Under the pieces are notes generated by a model. The model made no database searches. It worked only from the letters and a program-made list of their open reading frames with translations, and was not told where the DNA came from. The position numbers and the translations under genes are program-made. Positions 52,702 through 63,566 of a stretch of DNA of 64,000 bases are shown in pieces. Position 1 is the first letter of the stretch; each line of letters starts with the position of its first letter. The DNA comes from Plantactinospora soyae (GTDB lineage Bacteria > Actinomycetota > Actinomycetes > Mycobacteriales > Micromonosporaceae), in the NCBI RefSeq assembly GCF_014874095.1, contig NZ_JADBEB010000001.1, positions 6,696,001 through 6,760,000 on the forward strand, read 5' to 3'.

Positions 52702-54231
52702 TCACGCGTCGACCAGGTCGTCGGCGACGTCGACCCGGTCGAGCGAGGAGAGGATGCGGTAGTCGTACCAGTCGATCTGGATGGCACCGGCGGTGGCGTA
52801 GCAGCCGATGACCCGGCCGGTGAAGCCGCCGGCGACCTCGGTCGACAGGTATCGCCCGTCCAGTTCGGCGAGGACGACGAACTCGCCGTCCTCCGCTTCG
52901 AAGCCCAGTCGTACGACGTCCGGCTCCTGCCGGGGATGGTCCATGCCCGGCCCGGAGGACCAGGTCTCGACGCGTAGCACCACCGGGCCGGCGACCGTAC
53001 GGCTGGCGAGTTGCTCGGACAGGGGGCCGATCCGGGCCCGTACCCGCACCTCGCCCTCGTCCAACTCCACCGCGTAGTGGTGCTGTTCGTCCAGGCGTAC
53101 CGCCAGGCCGCCCCGGCCCTGAGGGGCGTCGACCAGCGCGCGTACCGCGAGGTCGTGCTGTTCCTGCCGGCGCCCGACGAAGGTCACCATCGGGTCGTCC
53201 AGCGAGCCGCCCCGGGCCCGCAGGGTCAGCCAGCCGGGCCGCTCGACCAGCGAGACGTCCTCGGGTGGGCGGGACCGGAGCGAGATCCACCGAGGATGCA
53301 GCTCCGCCGCGTCGAAGTCGTCCCGTGCCGGCGTGGCCGCCACCGGGGCCGCCGGCAGGGTCGGGGCACGCATCACCGGTGCGACGGTGCCGATCACCGG
53401 CCAGCCGTCGGACCAGGTGACCGGGGCGAGGAAGGTCTCCCGGCCGAGTACGTGCCAGCCGGGCGTCCCGCCACGGGGTCGTACGCCGAGGAAGAGCAGC
53501 CACCACGAGCCGTCCCCGGCCTGAACCAGATCGCCGTGCCCGGTGTTCTGGATCGGCTGGTCGGTGCTGCGGTGGCTGAGGATCGGGTTGGCCGGGCACG
53601 GTTCGAACGGGCCGTCGGGCGCGGGGCCACGGGCCACCGAGATGGCGTGGCCGCGCTCGGTGCCGCCCTCGGCGATTAGCAGGTACCAGGTGTCGCCGAC
53701 CCGGTAGAGGTGCGGAGCCTCCGGGAACTGGGCTCCCGGGGTGCCCGACCAGATGCGGGTCGGCTCGCTCAACACCGCGCCGCTGAGCGGATCGATCCGG
53801 ACCTGGCCGATCCCGGCGAAGGTGCACCAGCAGTTGCCCTCGTCATCCCAGGCCAGATCCGGATCGATGCCGAGTACGTCGGGCAGGTGCACCGGCTCGG
53901 ACCACTTGCCGGCGGGATCGTCGGCGGTGACCAGTATCGTGCCGCCGTGCGGGATGTTCGACGTGATGAGCCAGAACCGGCCGTCGTGGTGGCGCAGCGT
54001 AGGCGCGTAGATCCCGCCGGAGGACGGTGTGCCCGGCGGCAGGAGCAGTTGGCTCGGCCGGTCCAGGACATTTCCGATCTGGGTCCAGCCGACCAGGTCC
54101 CGGCTGTGGAAGATCGGCACCCCGGGGAAGTACTCGAAGCTAGAGCAGGCCAGGTAGTAGTCGTCCCCGACCCGGCACACGCTCGGGTCGGGGTAGCAAC
54201 CGGCGATGACCGGGTTGGCGAACGTTCGCAT
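52702..54231 (-). CDS. Glycoside hydrolase family 43 (beta-xylosidase type)
   Basis: This 509-residue enzyme has a five-bladed propeller with the three acidic residues: NPVIAGCYPDPSVCRVGDDY (base), GIDPDLAWDDEGN (pKa modulator) and PEAPHLYRVGDTWYLL (acid). A C-terminal beta-sandwich (from about residue 305, RDDFDAAELHPRWISLR) completes the layout of the beta-xylosidase/arabinofuranosidase subfamilies 11-12. It lacks a signal peptide, so it acts on imported xylo-oligosaccharides. It is divergent from the LacI gene, with a 310-base control region between. Confidence 0.92.
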   Translation of the reverse strand: MRTFANPVIAGCYPDPSVCRVGDDYYLACSSFEYFPGVPIFHSRDLVGWTQIGNVLDRPSQLLLPPGTPSSGGIYAPTLRHHDGRFWLITSNIPHGGTILVTADDPAGKWSEPVHLPDVLGIDPDLAWDDEGNCWCTFAGIGQVRIDPLSGAVLSEPTRIWSGTPGAQFPEAPHLYRVGDTWYLLIAEGGTERGHAISVARGPAPDGPFEPCPANPILSHRSTDQPIQNTGHGDLVQAGDGSWWLLFLGVRPRGGTPGWHVLGRETFLAPVTWSDGWPVIGTVAPVMRAPTLPAAPVAATPARDDFDAAELHPRWISLRSRPPEDVSLVERPGWLTLRARGGSLDDPMVTFVGRRQEQHDLAVRALVDAPQGRGGLAVRLDEQHHYAVELDEGEVRVRARIGPLSEQLASRTVAGPVVLRVETWSSGPGMDHPRQEPDVVRLGFEAEDGEFVVLAELDGRYLSTEVAGGFTGRVIGCYATAGAIQIDWYDYRILSSLDRVDVADDLVDA

Positions 54232-54365
54232 CAGCGGTCGATCAGAACTCGGTCGCCGGCAGCCCGGCCGGCCACTGCCCGGGGCACGGCTGAACGTGTC
54301 GGTGACTTCCTCGTCCCGCGTCCGCAGCGTGTCCCGGCGGAACGGGTCACCTTCATCGACTATCC

Positions 54366-54396
54366 TTTCCGGCGAAAACTTTCCGGAATAATTCCG
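54366..54396. promoter_or_regulatory. Candidate operator between GH43 and lacI
   Basis: The stretch has TTTCCGGCGAAAA followed by CTTTCCGGAATAATTCCG; it contains TTCCGGAA at 54381-54388 and a partial repeat on each side. It lies in the divergent control region and is AT-richer than its surroundings. It is the best site for the LacI regulator. Confidence 0.5.
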
Positions 54397-54542
54397 TAAC
54401 TAGATCGGAACGCTATGGCCCACCGTCCGGACAGTCAACCCCGAAACCTGAGGCAAAATACTGTGCACCCGGGCTGTGGACGCCGGTGCAGCCTCGGAAG
54501 TGTTTCGGTCGTAGGCTGAAGCCTCAACAAAGGAGCCGCCTC

Positions 54543-55565
54543 GTGACGGTCGACGAAGGACGCAGGATCACCATCACCGCCATCGCCCAGGAGGCGGGCG
54601 TGTCGGTGCCGACGGTCTCCCGGGTACTCAACGGCCGCAACGACGTGGCGCCGCAGACCCGCGAGCGGGTGGAGGAGCTCCTCCGCCGGCACGGTTACCG
54701 CCGCCGGGCGACCCGGCCCCGGGCCGGGGCGAGCCTGATCGACCTGATCTTCAACGACCTCGACAGCCCCTGGGCGGTGGAGATCATCCGAGGTGTCGAG
54801 GACGTCGCGCACGCCTCCGGGGTCGGCACGGTGGTCTCCGCCATCCATCGACGTTCCACCTCCACCCGGCAGTGGTTGCAGAATCTGCGTACCCGGGCCA
54901 CCGACGGGGTGATCCTGGTCGCCAGTGATCTGGCCCCGCCGGTGCACGCCGAGCTGCGCCGGCTCAACGTGCCGATGGTGTTGGTCGACCCGGCCGGCGT
55001 ACCGAACATCGACATCCCGACCATCGGCGCGACGAACTGGGCGGGCGGGCTGCGCGCGACCGAGCATCTGCTCTCGCTCGGGCACCGGCGGATCGGCTTC
55101 ATCGCCGGCCCGCCCCGACTGCTCTGTAGCCGGGCCCGTCTCGACGGCTACCGTGCCGCACTGGACGCCGCCGGCATGCCGCTGCACGATGAGCTGATTG
55201 TGCCCGGCGATTTCTACCACGAGTCGGGTTACTCCGGCGGCGCCGCGCTGCTCGACCTCGACGAGCCGCCGACGGCGATCTTCGCCTCCAGCGACCAGAT
55301 GGCGTTCGGGGCGTACGAGGCGGTCCGGCGGCGGGGGCTCCGGGTGCCCGACGACGTCAGTGTGGTCGGCTTCGACGACCTGCCGGAGGCGCGCTGGGCG
55401 TCGCCGCCGCTGACCACCGTGCGCCAGCCGTTGGCCGAGATGGGCCTGCTGGCCGCCCGGACCGTGCTCCGGCTGGCCCAGGGCGAGCCGCTGGACACCC
55501 CGCGGGTGGAGCTTTCCACCGATCTGGTCGTCCGGGACAGCTCGGCGCCGTATTCGGGCCGCTGA
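54543..55565 (+). CDS. LacI-family regulator of the xylan locus
   Basis: This 340-residue repressor has the LacI DNA-binding helices (TITAIAQEAGVSVPTVSRVL, NGRNDVAPQTRERVEELLRR) and a periplasmic-binding-protein-like sugar domain (LIDLIFNDLDSPWAVEIIRG, GGLRATEHLLSLGHRRIGFI, PTAIFASSDQMAFGAYEAVR). It is not close to CebR in the recognition helix. GTG 54543 follows AAAGGAG. Flanking GH43 and GH10 genes imply a xylan-derived sugar as inducer. Confidence 0.92.
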   Translation: MTVDEGRRITITAIAQEAGVSVPTVSRVLNGRNDVAPQTRERVEELLRRHGYRRRATRPRAGASLIDLIFNDLDSPWAVEIIRGVEDVAHASGVGTVVSAIHRRSTSTRQWLQNLRTRATDGVILVASDLAPPVHAELRRLNVPMVLVDPAGVPNIDIPTIGATNWAGGLRATEHLLSLGHRRIGFIAGPPRLLCSRARLDGYRAALDAAGMPLHDELIVPGDFYHESGYSGGAALLDLDEPPTAIFASSDQMAFGAYEAVRRRGLRVPDDVSVVGFDDLPEARWASPPLTTVRQPLAEMGLLAARTVLRLAQGEPLDTPRVELSTDLVVRDSSAPYSGR

Positions 55566-55596
55566 GGTCGAATTTCCGGTAGAACGGCTGCTGCAT

Positions 55597-55615
55597 TACC
55601 GGGAGATTTCCGGTA
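55597..55615. promoter_or_regulatory. Inverted repeat after the LacI gene
   Basis: TACCGG (55597-55602) and CCGGTA (55610-55615) enclose GAGATTT. ATTTCCGGTA occurs at 55606-55615 and also at 55572-55581. The site lies just upstream of the xylanase promoter and is a second candidate for LacI binding, or the end of the lacI transcript. Confidence 0.4.
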
Positions 55616-55619
55616 TGGC

Positions 55620-55663
55620 TTGACGGTTGGACCGGAATCGGCGAATACTTGGGAACGCTCCCA
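55620..55663 (+). promoter_or_regulatory. Xylanase promoter with near-perfect CebR box
   Basis: TTGACG (55620-55625) and AATACT (55644-55649) are 18 bases apart and make a good promoter. TGGGAACGCTCCCA (55650-55663) directly follows and differs by one base from the 14-base CebR operator TGGGAGCGCTCCCA known from Streptomyces. Its place over the probable transcription start would let CebR block the xylanase gene until cello-oligosaccharides are present. Confidence 0.75.
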
Positions 55664-55746
55664 TGGTGACGTTGAGTTAGTCGTCGGAGCCGGCCCTCCT
55701 GGTGTCGGGCCGCGGGTTGTCCGCCATCCGGCAAGGAGGCCCCGCC

Positions 55747-57267
55747 GTGGTCGACCACGTCCGTCCCACCACCCGGAACACCTCACCGGACATCCGGAGG
55801 CCCCGAGGAGATTGGCGTGCCCTCGGCGCCGGACTGGTCGCCGCCCTCGCCTCGGCGATGCTGACCGCCGGAATGAGCGTCGTCGTGCCCGCCGGTCCGG
55901 CTGGTGCCGCCACCACCACACTGGCCCAGTTGGCCGCCACCCGGGACAAGCAGATCGGCGTCGCGCTGGCGCCGGACCGGCTGACCGACCCGGCGTACCG
56001 GAACATCGCCGACAGCGAGTTCGACCACGTCGTGGCCGAGGACGCGATGACCTGGGCCGCCACCGAATCCCTCCGCGGCTCGTTCACCTGGTCCGCCGCC
56101 GACGAGATCGCGACGTACGCGGCCACCAGCGGCAAGGCACTGACCGGGCACGCCCTGGTCTCGCCCACCCAGGTGCCGGCCTGGGTCGACGAGATCACCT
56201 CCACCGACGACCTGCGCGCCGCGCTGCGCGAGCACATCAGCGCCGTGGTCGGCCGGTACGGCGACCAGGTCGAGTACTGGAACGTCCTCGACGAGGTGTT
56301 CGCCGAGGACGGCAACTGGCGGGAGGACTCGGTCTTCCAGCGGCTCGACAACTTCTACTGGATGGAGGAGGCGCTGTACGCCGCCCGGGCGGCCGCACCG
56401 AACGCCAAGCTCTGTGTCAACGACCACGGCACCGAGGCGATCAGATCCAAGGCCACCGCGCTCTACAACCTGGTGCTGCAGTACCAGGCCCGTGGCGTGC
56501 CGATCGACTGCGTCGGCTTCCAGACGCACCTGGCCGTCAACGGGGTGCCGGACACGCTCCAGGAGAATCTGCAACGCTTCGCCGACCTCGGCATCGACGT
56601 CCGGATCACCGAGTTGGACATCCGGGTCCCCGTCCCGGCCAGTCCCGCCGACCTGCGGGCACAAGCCACCGACTACCGGCGGGTCTTCCAAGCCTGTCTC
56701 GCGGTGACCCGGTGCACCGGCATCACCGTCTGGGGCGTCACCGACCGGTACTCCTGGATCCCGGACGCCCTACCCGGACAGGGCGCCGGGCTGCTCTGGG
56801 ACGAGGGGTACGCCAAGAAGCCGGCGTACGACGGGGTGACGGCGGCGCTCCTCGACACCACGAACCCCACCTTCACCTCGCCGCCGCCCACCCCGTCCGC
56901 CCCCGGGCCGGGCCCGTCGCCGACCGTGACCTCCCCGGCACCGCCGAGCGGCTGCACGGTGACGTACCGGGACATCACCTGGAACCGAGGGTTCATCGCC
57001 AGCATCCGGATCGGCAACGACACCACCTCCCCGGTGCACGGCTGGACCCTGACCTTCTCGCTCGGTGTCGGCCAGCGCGTCAGCCACGGCTTCAACGCGA
57101 CGGTCACCCAGTCGGGTGCCCAGGTGACCGCCCGGAACGTCGGACACAACCGGACCATCGGGGCCAACGGGGGAGCGCAGAGCTTCGGCTACCAGGCCAC
57201 CCAGACCGGCGGCAACCCCGCACCGACCTCGTTCGCGCTCAACGGGCGGCCCTGCCGTACCGCCTGA
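55747..57267 (+). CDS. Secreted GH10 xylanase-like enzyme with CBM2
   Basis: This 506-residue protein has a long signal peptide (to about residue 55), a GH10 barrel and, after a Pro/Ser/Thr linker, a CBM2 (about 400-506). The acid/base E183 (WNVLDE) and nucleophile E289 (ITELDI) are present, as are the conserved H261 (GFQTHL) and WGVTDRYSW. Several residues that hold the sugar at subsites -1 and -2 in GH10 are replaced: Asn to D99, Lys to T102, Trp to S139 and the Asn before the acid/base to D182. It may thus act on a different or modified substrate. AAGGAGG precedes GTG 55747. A CebR box controls it. Confidence 0.88.
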   Translation: MVDHVRPTTRNTSPDIRRPRGDWRALGAGLVAALASAMLTAGMSVVVPAGPAGAATTTLAQLAATRDKQIGVALAPDRLTDPAYRNIADSEFDHVVAEDAMTWAATESLRGSFTWSAADEIATYAATSGKALTGHALVSPTQVPAWVDEITSTDDLRAALREHISAVVGRYGDQVEYWNVLDEVFAEDGNWREDSVFQRLDNFYWMEEALYAARAAAPNAKLCVNDHGTEAIRSKATALYNLVLQYQARGVPIDCVGFQTHLAVNGVPDTLQENLQRFADLGIDVRITELDIRVPVPASPADLRAQATDYRRVFQACLAVTRCTGITVWGVTDRYSWIPDALPGQGAGLLWDEGYAKKPAYDGVTAALLDTTNPTFTSPPPTPSAPGPGPSPTVTSPAPPSGCTVTYRDITWNRGFIASIRIGNDTTSPVHGWTLTFSLGVGQRVSHGFNATVTQSGAQVTARNVGHNRTIGANGGAQSFGYQATQTGGNPAPTSFALNGRPCRTA

Positions 57268-57462
57268 CGCCGTCGTCCCCGGCCGCCCGGCGTCGCGTAC
57301 GGCGTCGCCGACGTGCCGGAGTCGGGTCCGCTCCGCCGCAACCAACCCCATCCGGCGGAGCGGACCGGTTTGCCGGGTTAGAGGTGATCGGGTGCGGGGT
57401 ACCACCCGCGGTAGCGACGCCCTGCCGCAAGGTGGGGCGCTGGACCCGAGGGAGCAGCACCG

Positions 57463-57768
57463 ATGAGACTCGACGACGACGACATTCGGACCACGGGCGG
57501 CGGTGGCGGGGAGGGTCCGGCCGACGGCGGGGCCAACCCGATGGGCCGGGACGGTGGCGCCGACGGTGCCGCCGAGGGCCCGGCCGACGCGGGTGCCACC
57601 GCGGGGCAACATGACGGTGGGGCCGACGGTGCCGCCGAGGGGCCGGCCGACGGAGGCGCCACCCCGGGCCAGCACGACGGTGGGGCCGACGGTGCCGCCG
57701 AGGGCCCGGCCGACGCGGGTGCCACCCCGGGGCAGCAGGACGGTGGCGCCGACGGCGCCGCCCGGTAG
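57463..57768 (+). CDS. Gly/Ala/Asp-rich tandem-repeat peptide, candidate RiPP precursor
   Basis: This 101-residue protein begins with a short acidic leader-like part (MRLDDDDIRTTGGGGG, residues 1-16). It then has a partial unit (17-29), three 21-residue repeats (30-50, 51-71, 72-92) and a final partial unit (93-101). Each repeat has DGGADGAAEGPAD, then GAT and GQH or GQQ. It has no Cys and no hydrophobic core. The form resembles repeat-core precursors of ribosomal peptides. The oxygenase gene follows 15 bases after the stop. I know no characterised homologue, so the function is not assigned. Confidence 0.65.
   Translation: MRLDDDDIRTTGGGGGEGPADGGANPMGRDGGADGAAEGPADAGATAGQHDGGADGAAEGPADGGATPGQHDGGADGAAEGPADAGATPGQQDGGADGAAR
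57550..57765 (+). repeat. 63-bp tandem repeats within the peptide gene
   Basis: Three units of 63 bases (57550-57612, 57613-57675, 57676-57738) and a partial fourth (57739-57765) are nearly identical at DNA level, including synonymous positions, which indicates recent expansion or gene-conversion-like homogenisation. Confidence 0.9.
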
Positions 57769-57783
57769 CGCCGGACCGGCGCG

Positions 57784-59148
57784 ATGATCGAGGACGGACG
57801 TCCGGCCGACACGGTGGCGGGGGAGCAGACGCCCGGACCTTCCGGACCGGCCCGGACAACCGCGCCGGGCGGCGAGGGCCGCCCGGCGCGGGCCGCCGGT
57901 ACGACCACCACCCGACCTCCGGCGCTCGCCCGGTGCGTGGCCGTCGAGCCGGCCAAGTTCGCCGCCGCCTACTGGGGGCGGGCCGCACTGCTGTCCCGGG
58001 CCGCCGAACTCGCCAACCCGGACGGCTTCACCGACCTGCTCAGTCCGGCCGACGCCGACGAACTGCTCAGCCGGCGTGGCCTGCGGACCCCCTTCCTGCG
58101 CGCGGCTCGGGGCGGCCAGGTGCTTCCGACCGGGCAGTACACCGGCGGCGGCGGGGCCGGCGCGGAGATCACCGACCAGGTACTCGACGAGCGCGTCCTC
58201 GCGCTCTACGCCGACGGCGCCACGCTGGTGCTCCAGGGCCTGCACCGGACCTGGCCACCCCTGATCGACTTCACCCGCGAACTGGGCCTGACCCTCGGGC
58301 AGCCGTTACAGGTCAACGCCTATCTCACCCCGGCCGGCAACCAGGGATTCGGCACCCACTACGACACCCACGACGTCTTCGTGCTCCAGGTGGACGGGCA
58401 CAAGCACTGGCAGGTCCACGAGCCCGTTCTGCCCGACCCGCTGGAGCGGCAGCCGTGGGGCGGCCGCGCCGACGAGGTGACCGCGGTCGCCGAAGGCCCG
58501 CCCGCGCTGGACGTGGTACTCGCCCCCGGGGACGCGTTCTACCTGCCCCGGGGCTGGCTGCACAGCGCCCGCGCCCAGGACGAGAGCAGCCTGCACCTGA
58601 CGGTCGGCGTCCGGGCGCTGACCCGCTACACGATCGTCGAGACCCTGCTGGACCTGGCCGCCGAGGACCGCAGGCTGCGCGCACCCCTGCCGTTCGGGGT
58701 CGACGTCGCCGACGTCGACCAGGTCGAACCGGAGCTGACCGAGACCGTCGAGGCACTACGGGACTGGCTGCTCCGTGCCGACCCGGCGGCGGTCGCCGAG
58801 CGGTTGCGGGCCCGAGCCTGGCCGGCGGCCCGACCGGCGCCGATCCGGCCACTCGCCCAGGCGGCGGCGATCGGCGCCGTCGACGCCGACACCCTCCTCG
58901 CCCCACGCGACGGCCTGCGCTGGCAGCTGACGGCAGAGCCCGCCGACGCCGACGGCGGTGCGGGCCAGGTCACCCTGCACCTGTTTGACCGCACCATCAC
59001 CCTCCCCGGCCAGTGCGCCCTCGCCGTCCGGGTGTTCCTCTCCGGCGGGGTTTCCCGGGTCGGTGACCTGCCCGGCCTCGACGACGACGCCGACCGGATC
59101 GTGCTGGCCCGCCGGCTGCTCCGCGAGGCGGTAGCGGTACCCGCGTGA
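57784..59148 (+). CDS. JmjC/cupin-type 2-oxoglutarate oxygenase
   Basis: This 454-residue protein has a disordered N-terminus (1-45) and a cupin_4/JmjC domain like ribosomal oxygenases (YcfD, NO66). Its iron triad is H192 and D194 in FGTHYDTHDVFVLQ and H260 in FYLPRGWLHSA; GHKHWQVH matches the family's G-x-K-x-W. The C-terminal third (about 290-454) forms the helical and winged-helix-like part seen in that family. Known members hydroxylate His, Arg or Asp/Asn side chains of proteins. Here the gene starts 15 bases after the repeat peptide, so that peptide, which has His, Gln and Asp in each unit, is the likely substrate. Confidence 0.88.
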   Translation: MIEDGRPADTVAGEQTPGPSGPARTTAPGGEGRPARAAGTTTTRPPALARCVAVEPAKFAAAYWGRAALLSRAAELANPDGFTDLLSPADADELLSRRGLRTPFLRAARGGQVLPTGQYTGGGGAGAEITDQVLDERVLALYADGATLVLQGLHRTWPPLIDFTRELGLTLGQPLQVNAYLTPAGNQGFGTHYDTHDVFVLQVDGHKHWQVHEPVLPDPLERQPWGGRADEVTAVAEGPPALDVVLAPGDAFYLPRGWLHSARAQDESSLHLTVGVRALTRYTIVETLLDLAAEDRRLRAPLPFGVDVADVDQVEPELTETVEALRDWLLRADPAAVAERLRARAWPAARPAPIRPLAQAAAIGAVDADTLLAPRDGLRWQLTAEPADADGGAGQVTLHLFDRTITLPGQCALAVRVFLSGGVSRVGDLPGLDDDADRIVLARRLLREAVAVPA

Positions 59149-59200
59149 AAGGAAGGGCCCCTTCTTATCGCTTTCTGTATAGGAAGGGCCCCCTGCTAAC
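59149..59200. repeat. GAAGGGCCCC-type intergenic repeat, likely terminator
   Basis: AGGAAGGGCCCC occurs at 59150-59161 and 59181-59192, 31 bases apart. The first copy forms the perfect hairpin GAAGGG-C-CCCTTC (59152-59164). It lies between the convergent oxygenase and FtsK-operon genes. Elements of this look are, as I recall, scattered in Micromonospora-type genomes. Confidence 0.65.
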
Positions 59201-59216
59201 CGCCTTGCCGCGGTGG

Positions 59217-59906
59217 TCAGCGGAGGAGTGCGAAGAGCGCGCCGGTGGTGAGCGCGCCGGCGCCCACCACCATCAGGACCGCCCGGACGTCCAGACCGGC
59301 GTGACGCCGGTCGGCGAGCACTCTCGCCGGCGCCAACCCGACCACCGGCCCGAGCAGGGTCACCAGCAGCGCGAGCACCGGCATCGCCACCGCCAGGTCG
59401 CCGCCGTACCGGACGCCGACGGCCCGGGCGGCGACCCCGAGGGCGTACGCGCCGGCCGCGCCGAGCACACCGAACGCCGCCAGCAGTGGTCGCGTCGCGC
59501 CCGGTAGCTCACCGGGTCTGCGGGCCCGGTCGAGCAGCTCACGAACCCCGTCCAGCAGCGTCTCGGTGTCGGCCGGTCCGCCGCCCTGCGGCACCGGAGG
59601 CTCGCCGATCCGCCGGTCCGCCGATCCGAGCTGCCCGCGCAGCGTGCTCCAGAGGTGGATCACCTCCGCCTCGGTGCCGTCGACCTCCTCCTGGGCGGCG
59701 GCCACCTCCGCCTCGGCCCGTCGTACGGAGTGCTCCGCGTCCCGTACGGCCCGGGTGGCGGCGGCGCACTGGCGCTCGTACCAGGTGTCCGCCTCGGCCC
59801 GTTCGGTCTCGGCCTGCCGGGTCACCTCGGCGAGTTGCCGGATCGAGCGGGCGTACGTCTCGGTCGACCCGGCGTACGGGTCGGTCTGCTCGGGACGGGC
59901 GGTCAT
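59217..59906 (-). CDS. Membrane protein of the FtsK-type operon
   Basis: This 229-residue protein has an N-terminal coiled coil (about 15-75, rich in Glu, Arg and Ala), a flexible middle part, and three predicted transmembrane helices in the last 85 residues. No known domain is recognised. ATG 59906 overlaps the stop of the FtsK-like gene (ATGA), so the two are translated together. It is the only membrane component of the operon and could anchor the soluble ATPase through its coiled coil. Confidence 0.78.
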   Translation of the reverse strand: MTARPEQTDPYAGSTETYARSIRQLAEVTRQAETERAEADTWYERQCAAATRAVRDAEHSVRRAEAEVAAAQEEVDGTEAEVIHLWSTLRGQLGSADRRIGEPPVPQGGGPADTETLLDGVRELLDRARRPGELPGATRPLLAAFGVLGAAGAYALGVAARAVGVRYGGDLAVAMPVLALLVTLLGPVVGLAPARVLADRRHAGLDVRAVLMVVGAGALTTGALFALLR

Positions 59907-62707
59907 CGTGACGGTCCGTAGGGAATGATCACTTGACCGGTGCGGTGCACCGAGCGGTCGAAGAAGAGCCCACGCCACGGGCGCGGGTACCAGTCGGGGC
60001 CGCCGCCGGGTCCCGGGTACAGCGCGGAGGTGAGCTCGGCCCCCTGGACGTCCAGTGCCACCCAGGCACCGATCTGATCGGTCCGGGACGCCGGTCCGCC
60101 GAGGTCCACCCGCATCCGGGCCACCCCCCGCCACCAGGCCAGGGTGTGGGTACGCCGCTCCGGCCCGTTGTGCAGGACGTGCCGCAGGTGTTCCAGCCCG
60201 GAGCGCCCGCCGACGGTGCCAGAGAGCTGGCTGGCGGCCGCGTCCACCGCGTAGAGGAGCAGGTAGTGCGGCTGGCCCAGGGTGCCGCCGTGGCCCAGCC
60301 CGTTCGCCGTCTCGGCCATCAGCTCGCCGATGTCCTCCTCCTCGTACCAGGAGGCGTCGGTGCCCAGCGCGTCGTAGAGCGACCGGGCGGCGGTGTCCGC
60401 GTCCGGGTCGAGACAGGCGATCGAGAACCGCGCGGTGCCGGGCCGGTGCTGGCGGTGCAGGGACCGGGCCGCCGCGTCCAGCACGGCGCACGCCTCGTCG
60501 ACTCCGGTGCCGAGTACGGCCAGGTTGCGGCCGGGTGCGCGAGGCAGCCGCATCCCCGCCGACCGTGCCTGTACATCGATGATCTCGCCGAGCAACGCGA
60601 CCGGTCCCCGGACACCACCGCTGGGCCGGTCCGGGCCGGTTCCGCTCCGGTTCGGGCCGGCCTCGGAACGGTCCGGGACGGCGGTCCGATCCGGCTCGCC
60701 GTCGGCGCCGAGCTGGACGGTCGCCCGGGACCCGTCGGGGTCGCCCGGTGGGCGCAGCGCGACGAAGTCCGGCGCCTCCTCCAGCCGGGGTATCGCGTCC
60801 CCGTCGAAGAGTCGGGCCGGGGCGGCGTCCGGTGGGCGCATCCGCCACAGTCGGTGCTGCAGATCGCTCCAGGTGCCCCAGTCGCTGGCCGCCGGGATCC
60901 GGGCCACCTGGTTGCCCTCGGACATTCCCGACTCGGCGTTGACCACCGCGTGGTGCCGGGGGAGCGACTGCGCGGCGTCGTTGCGCTCGGCCAGGATCCG
61001 CAACGCCTTGGGCAGCGCGATCCGCAGGGTGAACTGGGCGACCAGCGCCGGCCGACCCCACAGCGCCTCGATGCCGCGCACGTCCTGCGAGGCCAGCACC
61101 AGGTGGATGCCCTGGGAACGGCCCCGCCGGGCCAGGTCCTCCAGGAGGTCGGCGGACTCCCGGGCGACCGCGTCCCGGCCGGCCAGCAGCATCTGGAACT
61201 CGTCCACCACGGCGACGATCCGGGGCCAGCGGCCGGTCGGGTCCACCGCGCGCAACTCGGCGAGCTTGGTCACCTCGTGCCGCTTGGCGGCGTCGGCCCG
61301 ACGGCGCAGTTCCTCGGCCAGGAACCGCAGCAGGGCCAGCCCGAACTCGCGGTCGGTGTTGACGTTGATCCCGACCAGCCGCATGTGCGGCAGCCAGCTC
61401 GGATCCCGCCGCCCCTGGGCGAACCGGGCGAAGGACACCCCCTCTTTGAAGTCGAGCAGGTAGAACTCGAGTTCGGCGGGGGAGTACCGGGCGGCCAGCG
61501 AACCGATCCAGGCGAAGATCAGATTGGTCTTGCCGGTACCGGAGGGGCCGCCGATCAGCGCGTGCGGCGGGTAGTCGCCGAGGGTCAGCGACACCGGCCG
61601 GCCCTGGGGGCCGTCGCCGATCGGCGCGACCAGGCTGTGCGCCGAGTCCTCCTGCCACATGGCGTCGACCGGTGGCAGCAGGTCGGTGAAGGGCGTCGGT
61701 GGCGGGCCGGCGTTGACCTGGGCGGCGACCTCCCGACAGGTCTCGGTGACCAGGGTCGCCGGGGGCGCCGGGTCGGTGCGTACGGTCAGCCCGGGGCAGG
61801 AGTCCAGTCGGGTACCGTCGGCCGTCACCACCACCCGGTGCACGGCGGGCTCGTCCGGCAGGTCGATCCCGCGCACCACGAGATGCACCCCGCAGGCCGC
61901 TCCGGTCCGGACGACCCGGTCCAACTGCCCACGCTCGTGTCGGGACAGCTCGTCGCCGCCGAGCAGCACCGCCACCCGCCACGGCTCGGGACGCCGTCCG
62001 GTCGCCGCCGCCAGCTCGCGCAGTGAGCCGTACTCCCCGGCGAGCACCGTCTCGTTGATCCGGCGGATCTGGTCGACCAGGTCGTCGAGCAGTCGGGCCA
62101 GCCCGCCGGGCCCGACGAAGGTCAGCAGGCCGGCCGTGGAGAGCGGGGCGAACCCGGCGAGCCCGCCGCCGAGGTGCTCCGGGTCGTAGCCGACCAGCCG
62201 GACCGCGCCGGGGGCGGCGCGGCCGATGGCGCGGAGCAGCAGGGCGGCGACGACCGCGTCGCAGCCCGCCCGGTCGGCCCCGGACAGGTGGACGTGACCC
62301 GCGTCGAGCAGCGGCACGAGCGCCGGCACGGGGACGCTGTCGGGCAGGCGTACCGTGCCGATCCGCAGCGGCCCGGGAGCCTCGCCCCGGACGACCGGGG
62401 TGGGTTGCCAGCCGGGCCAGTCCGCTCCGGCGGCACCGGGGGCCTCCCGCTCCGCGGCCTGGGCGGCCCGGTCGGCGAGGCCGGCGATCCGGTCGCCGTA
62501 CCGGTCGGCGAGGTCGGTGATCCGCTGGTCCCGTTCCGCGCCGACCCGGGCCGGGACCCGCCCGGCGGCGTCCCGGGTACGGCGTAGCCGGTCCTGCGCG
62601 GCGCCGAGTTCGGACCGGGCCGCCGTGAGCCGGGCCCGGGACGCGCCAAGGGCGTGCGACAACATGGTGCGGACCCGGGTGACCAGCTGGGTCCGGAGGT
62701 CAGGCAT
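59903..62707 (-). CDS. FtsK/SpoIIIE-type ATPase with three ATPase-like domains
   Basis: This 934-residue protein starts with a coiled coil (about 20-90). Three P-loop-like domains follow. The first (about 110-320) has no Walker A. The second (about 340-640) has GGPSGTGKT at 386-394 and VVDEF at 500-504 and is the active motor. The third (about 665-934) is degenerate at the P-loop (VLGTGVDEA). This threefold order is that of EccC/EssC ATPases in type VII secretion, but no transmembrane helix is present. ATG 62707 overlaps the preceding stop by eight bases; a longer frame to 63094 is only a shadow. Confidence 0.85.
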   Translation of the reverse strand: MPDLRTQLVTRVRTMLSHALGASRARLTAARSELGAAQDRLRRTRDAAGRVPARVGAERDQRITDLADRYGDRIAGLADRAAQAAEREAPGAAGADWPGWQPTPVVRGEAPGPLRIGTVRLPDSVPVPALVPLLDAGHVHLSGADRAGCDAVVAALLLRAIGRAAPGAVRLVGYDPEHLGGGLAGFAPLSTAGLLTFVGPGGLARLLDDLVDQIRRINETVLAGEYGSLRELAAATGRRPEPWRVAVLLGGDELSRHERGQLDRVVRTGAACGVHLVVRGIDLPDEPAVHRVVVTADGTRLDSCPGLTVRTDPAPPATLVTETCREVAAQVNAGPPPTPFTDLLPPVDAMWQEDSAHSLVAPIGDGPQGRPVSLTLGDYPPHALIGGPSGTGKTNLIFAWIGSLAARYSPAELEFYLLDFKEGVSFARFAQGRRDPSWLPHMRLVGINVNTDREFGLALLRFLAEELRRRADAAKRHEVTKLAELRAVDPTGRWPRIVAVVDEFQMLLAGRDAVARESADLLEDLARRGRSQGIHLVLASQDVRGIEALWGRPALVAQFTLRIALPKALRILAERNDAAQSLPRHHAVVNAESGMSEGNQVARIPAASDWGTWSDLQHRLWRMRPPDAAPARLFDGDAIPRLEEAPDFVALRPPGDPDGSRATVQLGADGEPDRTAVPDRSEAGPNRSGTGPDRPSGGVRGPVALLGEIIDVQARSAGMRLPRAPGRNLAVLGTGVDEACAVLDAAARSLHRQHRPGTARFSIACLDPDADTAARSLYDALGTDASWYEEEDIGELMAETANGLGHGGTLGQPHYLLLYAVDAAASQLSGTVGGRSGLEHLRHVLHNGPERRTHTLAWWRGVARMRVDLGGPASRTDQIGAWVALDVQGAELTSALYPGPGGGPDWYPRPWRGLFFDRSVHRTGQVIIPYGPSR

Positions 62708-63566
62708 GGGTGTCCCGGGGGGCACGGGCGGTGACCGGTCGCTGGTCGACGCCGAGCCGGCGCATGAGCAGACCGGTGAGTACGCCGGCCGCCACCGCCG
62801 GGTCGGCCGGATGCGGCTGCTCCACCGGATCCTTCGGCGGTGGCATCCGGCAGACCCGACTGAGCAACGTGTCGAGCACTCCCGGCGGCAGGTTCGGCAC
62901 GAGGTCCTGCACCTGCCCGGTGACCTCGCGGCGCAGCCGGGGCAGGTCCGCCGCCCGGGGCGGGTGGCCGAGCAGTTCGGTGGCCAGGTCGCGCAGCACC
63001 GGCGGGGCCACCGAGGCCAGTCCGAGCCCGATGTTGGCCTCCACGCCCCGCAGTTCGGTGTGCAGCCGACCGTGGTCGCCGGAGCGGACGTCACTGGTCA
63101 CCCGGCGCAGCAGCTCCTCCGCATCGGTGATCTCCTGGTCCGGCTTGGCGGCCGGGGTGCCGTGCCGGCCGAACAACTCGGCGACCCGGACCGACCACCA
63201 GCCGCCGGTCGGCGCCGGCACACCACGCCGGACGGGCCCGGTGGGCTTGTCCGCGACCGGGCCGCCGGGTCCGGCGGGCGGCCGGCCGGGCGTGGGACCG
63301 GGGGCGCCGTCGCGGGCCAGGCCGATCGCGGCCAGGTACGTCGCAAGCTGGTCCTGGGCGAGCCGCAGCGCGGAACCGGCGGTCTCCGCGTGTTCGGTGG
63401 CGGCGGACAACTCGGGTACGCCCATCGGGTCGGACGACTCCTGCCGGACCCACCGGAGCCGCTCGGAGGCGAGCTTGAGGTGGTCGAGCGCCTTTATCAC
63501 CAGGTCGACGGGCAGCTCGTCGGACGTCGCCCGTACCTGGGCTCCGAGTTCCTCGATGATGGACAT
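62700..63566 (-). CDS. Soluble protein of the FtsK-type operon, function unknown
   Basis: This 288-residue protein has an N-terminal helical part (IEELGAQVRATSDELPVDLV to about residue 85), a Pro/Gly-rich linker (about 88-115) and a helical C-terminal half that includes LRRVTSDVRSGDHGRLHTEL. No signal peptide, transmembrane helix or known motif is seen. It lies seven bases after the gene for the 86-residue helical protein and overlaps the FtsK-like gene, so it probably works in the same complex, perhaps as an adaptor. Confidence 0.75.
   Translation of the reverse strand: MSIIEELGAQVRATSDELPVDLVIKALDHLKLASERLRWVRQESSDPMGVPELSAATEHAETAGSALRLAQDQLATYLAAIGLARDGAPGPTPGRPPAGPGGPVADKPTGPVRRGVPAPTGGWWSVRVAELFGRHGTPAAKPDQEITDAEELLRRVTSDVRSGDHGRLHTELRGVEANIGLGLASVAPPVLRDLATELLGHPPRAADLPRLRREVTGQVQDLVPNLPPGVLDTLLSRVCRMPPPKDPVEQPHPADPAVAAGVLTGLLMRRLGVDQRPVTARAPRDTHA

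Follow-up and report, generated by a model that had tools for sequence, protein, structure and literature searches.

A conserved gene pair in Plantactinospora soyae encoding an Asp/Gly-rich tandem-repeat peptide and a NO66-like JmjC oxygenase, a candidate RiPP-like peptide/maturase system

Introduction

The oxygenases NO66, MINA53 and YcfD belong to the JmjC_2 family (PF08007) and, going by their PDB titles, act on ribosomal proteins. The association of a peptide with a JmjC maturase is already known as well: reports on biphenomycin biosynthesis describe the JmjC Fe/2OG proteins BpmG and BipG as ornithine hydroxylases that act on one Orn of a ribosomal precursor, the hydroxylase sharing the work of maturation with MNIO, radical SAM and arginase enzymes and a protease encoded in the same cluster (PMC12257519, PMC12707348). 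The accessible part of a further report describes PF08007 JmjC proteins that carry a fused RRE-like domain and places bacterial JmjC homologs of certain such proteins in RiPP-like contexts; no Asp/Gly repeat precursor is named in that part (PMC12710340).

Here we analyse a 64,000-nucleotide stretch of the Plantactinospora soyae genome (hereafter the window), in which a gene for a short repetitive peptide directly precedes a JmjC_2 oxygenase gene. The enzyme resembles NO66, MINA53 and YcfD in fold over most of its length, in its HxD...H motif and in a conserved Lys, but its gene is coupled to one for a dedicated repeat peptide. Unlike BpmG and BipG, it is the only enzyme of its system, and an Asp/Gly repeat takes the place of their precursor; with the RRE-fused PF08007 proteins it has in common a JmjC_2 domain and, as modelled, a terminal part that may be of the same beta-then-alpha kind. 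The peptide itself is reminiscent of hydrophilins and other disordered stress proteins, which are likewise Gly-rich, hydrophilic and disordered and have a stress-type promoter, although we know of no hydrophilin that comes with a dedicated oxygenase. What appears to be new here is the two-gene system, its Asp/Gly tandem-repeat precursor and its great breadth. The literature searched held no relevant paper on the peptide's sequence motifs, and among the matches listed for Bacillus subtilis YxbC there was nothing useful.

The repeat peptide

The peptide ORF (57463..57768, forward strand) has an ATG start and encodes 101 aa rich in Gly, Ala and Asp, the putative substrate of the oxygenase; the oxygenase ORF follows 15 bases on, on the same strand, confirming the coordinates in the original prediction. 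After a leader-like start, MRLDDDDIRTTGGGGG (57463..57510), come four 21-aa units patterned like EGPADGGATPGQHDGGADGAA, all on the forward strand and delimited by Tandem Repeats Finder and repeat comparison: a diverged first unit EGPADGGANPMGRDGGADGAA (57511..57573), then EGPADAGATAGQHDGGADGAA (57574..57636), EGPADGGATPGQHDGGADGAA itself (57637..57699) and EGPADAGATPGQQDGGADGAA (57700..57762). Tandem Repeats Finder reported a 63-base unit present in 4.0 copies over 57511-57762 with 85% matches. The three near-identical repeats that had been predicted are all there, but the total is four, the first unit, in which NPMGRD replaces TPGQHD, having gone uncounted. Although the system is widespread, Pfam and NCBIfam searches at a cutoff of E=1 returned nothing for the window peptide.

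Conservation of the first 16 residues had been named as a check on the original prediction. The first ~8 (MxLxDDDI) are conserved, and M1, L3, D5, D6 and D7 do not vary in a set of 25 distinct 101-aa peptides to which that of the window belongs. In this equal-length set GPADGGA and DGGAD are nearly all invariant in each unit, so that the repeats as well as the tag are conserved, while repeat number varies among peptides. Motifs had some part in the choice of peptide starts and of the unit pattern; leader counts on the wider peptide set are therefore biased and the set of 25 is the fairer one. In the wider set of 150 distinct peptides, a few of which are mis-picked frames (e.g., L202 and L033), Asp occurs in 150/150 and makes up 16% of residues, most often at a spacing of 4, 9 or 8 and mostly followed by GG, whilst there is next to no Trp, Tyr, Phe or Cys. 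From 104 of these 150 peptides we extracted 340 repeat units with a pattern that fixes E1, G2, D5, G7, D14-D18 and A21; these units are informative at the remaining positions only, the 25 equal-length peptides providing a pattern-free check. One relative (L017) has long non-canonical units (RGVERGADAGADVGAD...) inserted among its standard repeats, giving 226 aa in the listed frame.

Between repeats of a single gene, pS is 0.335 and pN 0.056 (pN/pS 0.17); between genes, the 25 peptides of 101 aa give pS 0.461, pN 0.082 and pN/pS 0.18, with a weaker ratio, 0.52, over their first 15 residues. The large excess of pS over pN within a gene indicates that the amino-acid sequence of the repeats is held by selection and is not due to very recent DNA copying alone. 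The original prediction had called the repeats homogenised, and the somewhat lower pS within than between genes leaves room for some homogenisation; the ratio of 0.17, however, is that of purifying selection.

When folded alone, the peptide gave a model with low confidence throughout (mean pLDDT 54.6) and a helix at residues 5-10 only, as would be expected of a disordered chain. Hydrophilins are defined by a Gly content above 6 percent and high hydrophilicity; with 31% Gly and a GRAVY of -0.85 the peptide has the composition of a hydrophilin.

The oxygenase

The downstream ORF (57784..59148, forward strand, 454 aa) was identified as a JmjC_2 (NO66-like) Fe(II)/2-oxoglutarate oxygenase by Pfam (JmjC_2 PF08007, E=1.6e-29), by a PDB sequence search (NO66, 2.8e-21, ~25% identity) and by an AlphaFold2 model built from 41 orthologs (mean pLDDT 89.3). 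Foldseek searches with this model gave NO66 as the best match (4ccn, E=3.1e-25; TM 0.64, rmsd 5.4 over 461 alignment columns), followed by MINA53, YcfD-type enzymes and B. subtilis YxbC. The iron site, which had been predicted to be intact, is so: the codons for His192-x-Asp194 (58357..58365, forward strand) and for the third ligand His260 (58561..58563, forward strand) are assigned their role by homology, and H192, D194 and H260 are invariant in 41/41 aligned orthologs, as is K207, which by analogy with NO66 would be the 2-oxoglutarate Lys.

As modelled, the enzyme consists of a JmjC barrel followed by a C-terminal winged-helix fold (residues 371-453; 58894..59142, forward strand) with strands between 371 and 408 and helices at 409-420 and 435-447. 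This strand-then-helix order would suit a winged-helix or RRE-like domain, and fits any winged helix; the RRE (PqqD) profile PF05402 had no match in the oxygenase, for which Pfam to E=1 gave just JmjC_2, Cupin_8 and Cupin_1. In a distant relative (L249) the corresponding end matches MarR weakly, below the cutoff.

Co-occurrence of the two genes

Loci were picked via the oxygenase, never via the peptide, and submitted to a fixed test that calls for a same-strand open frame ending between -260 and +60 bases from the start of the enzyme domain and containing at least three DGGAD/PxDGGA-type motifs; L122 and L202, with fewer than 300 bases upstream, were dropped. Among distinct orthologs scoring above 560 bits such a frame lies upstream in 157/158, the sole miss being L005, where the repeat ORF is present but further from the domain start. 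The proportion falls with score, from 20/22 at 480-560 bits through 8/13 at 430-480 and 2/3 at 340-430 to 3/12 at 200-340 and 0/20 below 200 bits, against a background of 0/3514 random anchors in the flanks. The original prediction had proposed a look for homologous oxygenases with no repeat gene beside them. Of the 193 orthologs scoring above 430 bits, eight fail the fixed test; besides L005 these include a broken stretch with two motifs (L159) and four loci with other Asp-rich peptides upstream (L074, L075, L076, L240). In the remaining two, L241 and L242, which lie within the main oxygenase clade and so speak against the reading favoured below, the upstream ORF is acidic, non-repetitive and ends in GQGPTVEPGA or GRGPTIEPGA; it may have taken the place of the repeat peptide.

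A reverse search with a peptide profile matched 66/151 genomes, and comparison of positions by eye placed 65 of these matches next to the oxygenase and one (G002) at a contig end. No free-standing match was scored away from the oxygenase, among up to 36 candidates scored per genome, so that a weak copy of the peptide elsewhere could be missed. Conversely, 14 of the 79 oxygenase-bearing genomes had no profile match: in seven a repeat ORF was found on direct reading (L050, L052, L058, L061, L062, L064, L077), the profile having missed divergent repeats; three have a different Asp-rich peptide (L074, L075, L076); and four have fragments or distant matches only (G032, G048, G089, G140), G048 (locus L078) showing no such peptide when read directly. 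Together, the fixed test and the profile co-occurrence rule out chance or an assembly artefact as the source of the pair, which is a real two-gene system kept together in many families of the order and the class. It also shows one hallmark of a RiPP locus, a ribosomally encoded peptide next to a modifying enzyme, "modifying" being a matter of homology.

The oxygenase is matched in 79/151 relatives, 94/296 genomes drawn from the class and 244/397 drawn from the order, the latter two tallies at E<=1e-20 and all three including distant paralogs. In Micromonospora (g4) it is nearly universal, present in 114/121 genomes at E<=1e-60, and six of the seven genomes without it are assemblies of at least 420 contigs; it is absent from other genera of the family, e.g., from the g12 genomes listed. 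Absence of the system from 72/151 related genomes indicates that it is dispensable for many.

Distant paralogs and their upstream peptides

We also considered distant JmjC_2 proteins, whose best domain scores less than 300 bits; there are 51 distinct ones, including some split or truncated matches. In 28/51 a short ORF whose tail is rich in Asp, Gly and Ser lies upstream, versus 19/3320 random anchors, an approximate background in that the anchors come from flanks of close relatives and not from the distant genomes. Among the 23/51 that failed this Asp-tail test, peptides were recognisable on reading at L257, L258, L264, L265, L266, L283, L284 and L286, and no peptide was seen on reading others, such as L251, L255 and L260. 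The paralogs' precursor types include VEVEDLAEVTSRDITAGGDSDGTDSSSDFI, ...RSRxEQPSDGGGTGRSDTND, ...DTEHSDSDGSDG and TDADADS/DGTDGDATD repeats; in divergent precursors (GDADTTDGG, TDADADS, GDSDGTDSSSDFI, SDGGGTGRSD, SDSDGSDG) Asp is kept and little else.

On a tree of 86 oxygenases bearing seven peptide-type labels, 7 changes of type sufficed (minimum 6), against a mean of 40.5 for shuffled labels, none of 200 shuffles being as low as 7, and every precursor type with at least four rows needs one or two changes only; these figures come from a quick tree with author-chosen rows and labels, two long rows (L078, L080) and 48% support for branch B, and near relatives among the 86 rows inflate the clustering. 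Judged on these sequences, peptide type follows the oxygenase tree. The window genome has a second JmjC_2 gene (L031, noted with L088; G000:C1:7571889-7573061, minus strand; 35% identity), preceded by a 50-aa ORF that ends in DHDPSDPAHIGHDTDPTDCCDH and is Asp-rich and unrelated in sequence to the window peptide, possibly another precursor type.

A promoter-like element upstream of the pair

A script detected a promoter-like element, GGTTAGA...GGGTAC (GTTAGA-N14-GGGTAC), at 57376..57402 on the forward strand, which resembles SigB-type promoters. Published Streptomyces coelicolor promoters of SigB homologues, including GTTAGA-N13-GGGTAC of SCO5555p, are similar to it (PMC8346170), as is the Actinoplanes sigmaH motif (PMC11205660). 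When 18 upstream regions were aligned, most shared GGTTAGA...GGGTAC, and otherwise a ribosome-binding stretch and little else. Among 173 upstream regions with a recognised start, the strict motif was present in 78/102 of the top-scoring group versus 6/71 of the others, at a median of 58 bases before the start, and in 0.3% of sequences shuffled in two-base blocks; as these loci are close relatives, common descent contributes to the count alongside constraint. These motifs suggest that in close relatives a SigB-type stress promoter drives expression of the pair; outside the top-scoring group the strict motif is rare, so stress control may be lineage-specific.

Conservation of the flanking genes

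We compared 8 kb flanks at 17 named loci (Actinoplanes and Virgisporangium represented twice each), scanning ORFs of at least 90 aa with low-complexity sequence masked and the peptide itself not counted. The oxygenase is the sole ORF common to all 16 other loci, the next-best ORFs reaching 10, and at Actinoplanes philippinensis, Virgisporangium aurantiacum, Rugosimonospora, Dactylosporangium and Modestobacter no other ORF is common to three or more of the other loci. No conserved protease or exporter gene was present among the ORFs shared across genera in these flanks. A link to the FtsK-like cluster downstream of the window oxygenase was considered and rejected; the matching ORF is common to just 7/16 other loci, for which reason we take it as local synteny. 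The xylanase, GH43 and LacI-type neighbours were likewise discarded as parts of the system, not being kept across genera.

Proposed function and alternatives

The reading that we favour, and regard as reasonably probable, is a RiPP-like pair of peptide and maturase whose oxygenase hydroxylates the repeated Asp, most likely at the beta carbon; the JmjC hydroxylases of biphenomycin biosynthesis, which act on a ribosomal precursor, are a precedent. In such a self-contained system the peptide would be an intrinsically disordered substrate, built of Asp/Gly-rich tandem repeats and headed by MxLxDDDI as a short conserved tag; the NO66-like oxygenase would bind it, the tag perhaps being held by the C-terminal winged-helix/RRE-like domain, and would hydroxylate the recurring Asp of the GPADGGA and DGGAD motifs; and the product would be a peptide bearing several beta-hydroxyaspartates that probably acts uncut, for instance as a metal-binding or protective polyanion, and not as an exported antibiotic. 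The earlier proposal that the peptide is the oxygenase's substrate accords with what was seen: the genes are paired, the start of the peptide is conserved, repeat number varies and the repeats are under purifying selection, all of which suit a multi-site substrate. A His/Gln target is not supported, nor is a multi-core RiPP that is cut and exported. The adjacency of the peptide and oxygenase genes falls short of proving an enzyme/substrate relation.

As for the target, His/Gln or Asp had been predicted in each repeat. DGGAD is preceded by any of H, Q, R, V, E, T and other residues (among the 340 units, 182 have H there, 90 have Q and 48 have R), and no His column is invariant across the 25 equal-length peptides; His is thus unlikely to be the general target and was rejected as such, and the His/Gln part of the prediction is not supported. 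Asp persists, surviving in all precursor types found, and this, with a fold that hydroxylates protein side chains, makes it the most likely target. Conservation by itself, however, does not mark out the target residue, since Gly and Ala are kept about as well as Asp, and as a counterpoint the best-matched fold relatives are, from their PDB titles, His or Arg hydroxylases and not Asp hydroxylases; BipG, too, acts on Orn and not on Asp. The fold relatives hydroxylate His or Arg at the beta carbon.

Several other readings were weighed against a hydroxylated repeat peptide. We think it unlikely that the peptide protects against stress as a disordered protein of hydrophilin type and that the oxygenase is a ribosomal oxygenase with another target, the two sharing an operon through a stress regulon. 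The Gly content, low GRAVY and unfolded model of the peptide would all agree with this, as would the SigB-type motif, similar to published promoters, in 78/102 top-scoring upstream regions, although for protection against drying or hyperosmotic stress this motif is no more than suggestive; moreover, the fold of the oxygenase is nearest to ribosomal oxygenases, and near-universality in one genus (114/121) is what a core function might show. Two findings, however, are difficult to account for unless the partnership is direct: co-occurrence is one-to-one, with zero free-standing peptide matches among those scored, and the type of peptide changes with the oxygenase clade, even where the peptides are short and different in sequence. 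Still less probable, in our judgement, is a peptide that serves not as product but as pseudo-substrate, metallochaperone or regulator of the oxygenase, acting for example in iron delivery or active-site occupancy: its Asp-rich tag and repeats could conceivably bind metal, and it is a small, co-conserved upstream partner, but its repeat number varies and so long a repetitive sequence exceeds the need of a single-site regulator.

The original prediction also likened the peptide to multi-core precursors, and we considered a classical RiPP whose repeats are cores that are modified, cut out and exported by an unlinked housekeeping protease and transporter. The leader-like tag and the near-identical units in variable number would be in keeping with this, and not every RiPP needs a linked maturation protease or exporter. 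JmjC enzymes are known as RiPP maturases, and JmjC homologs are reported to lie in RiPP-like contexts (PMC12710340). Against it, only the oxygenase is conserved in the 8 kb flanks across genera, with no protease or exporter gene beside the pair, and variable linker length together with the continuous GGADGGAD stretches of many homologs means that a fixed cutting site is not evident by eye. We therefore hold this version to be quite improbable; the want of another conserved gene and the SigB-like promoter give a classical cut-and-exported RiPP no support. For the hydroxylated peptide that we favour, the stress-type promoter, the disorder and the lack of conserved export genes would point to an intracellular or cell-associated polyanion rather than an excreted antibiotic.

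We further speculate, with considerable doubt, that a large bacterial JmjC_2 clade outside the ribosomal oxygenases consists of dedicated maturases of Asp-rich ribosomal peptides with at least five co-diversified precursor types, and that the window branch, near-universal in Micromonospora, makes a stress-induced peptide with multiple predicted beta-hydroxyaspartates. If so, the window peptide would be the ribosomally made equivalent of metal chelators based on hydroxyaspartate, or else a protective polyanion that is hydroxylated, and the co-diversified precursor types would supply a natural substrate set for specificity mapping. The pair offers a defined, easily expressed two-gene test of whether ribosomal-oxygenase-type JmjC enzymes act as bacterial peptide maturases.

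Window context

The window genome is one contig of 9.7 Mb. A phage origin was rejected, there being no phage match, as was a plasmid origin: 136 plasmid records match, none of them covering 80% of the query and all below 60% identity. An Rfam search over 57000-59300 gave zero matches, ruling out a riboswitch or known RNA there. Just upstream of the pair, 52702-57267 encodes a GH43 family protein, a LacI-type regulator and a GH10 protein with a cellulose-binding module, and looks like a xylan-use cluster. On the other side, an FtsK/SpoIIIE-type ATPase gene (59903-63094, reverse strand) is convergent with the oxygenase; the tRNA-Arg(ccg) that ARAGORN placed inside this ORF on the opposite strand (62455-62549) is probably a false positive. 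Directly 3' of the oxygenase stop, two copies of a AGGAAGGGCCCC element (59149-59200) were read by eye, which look like an intergenic repeat or terminator.
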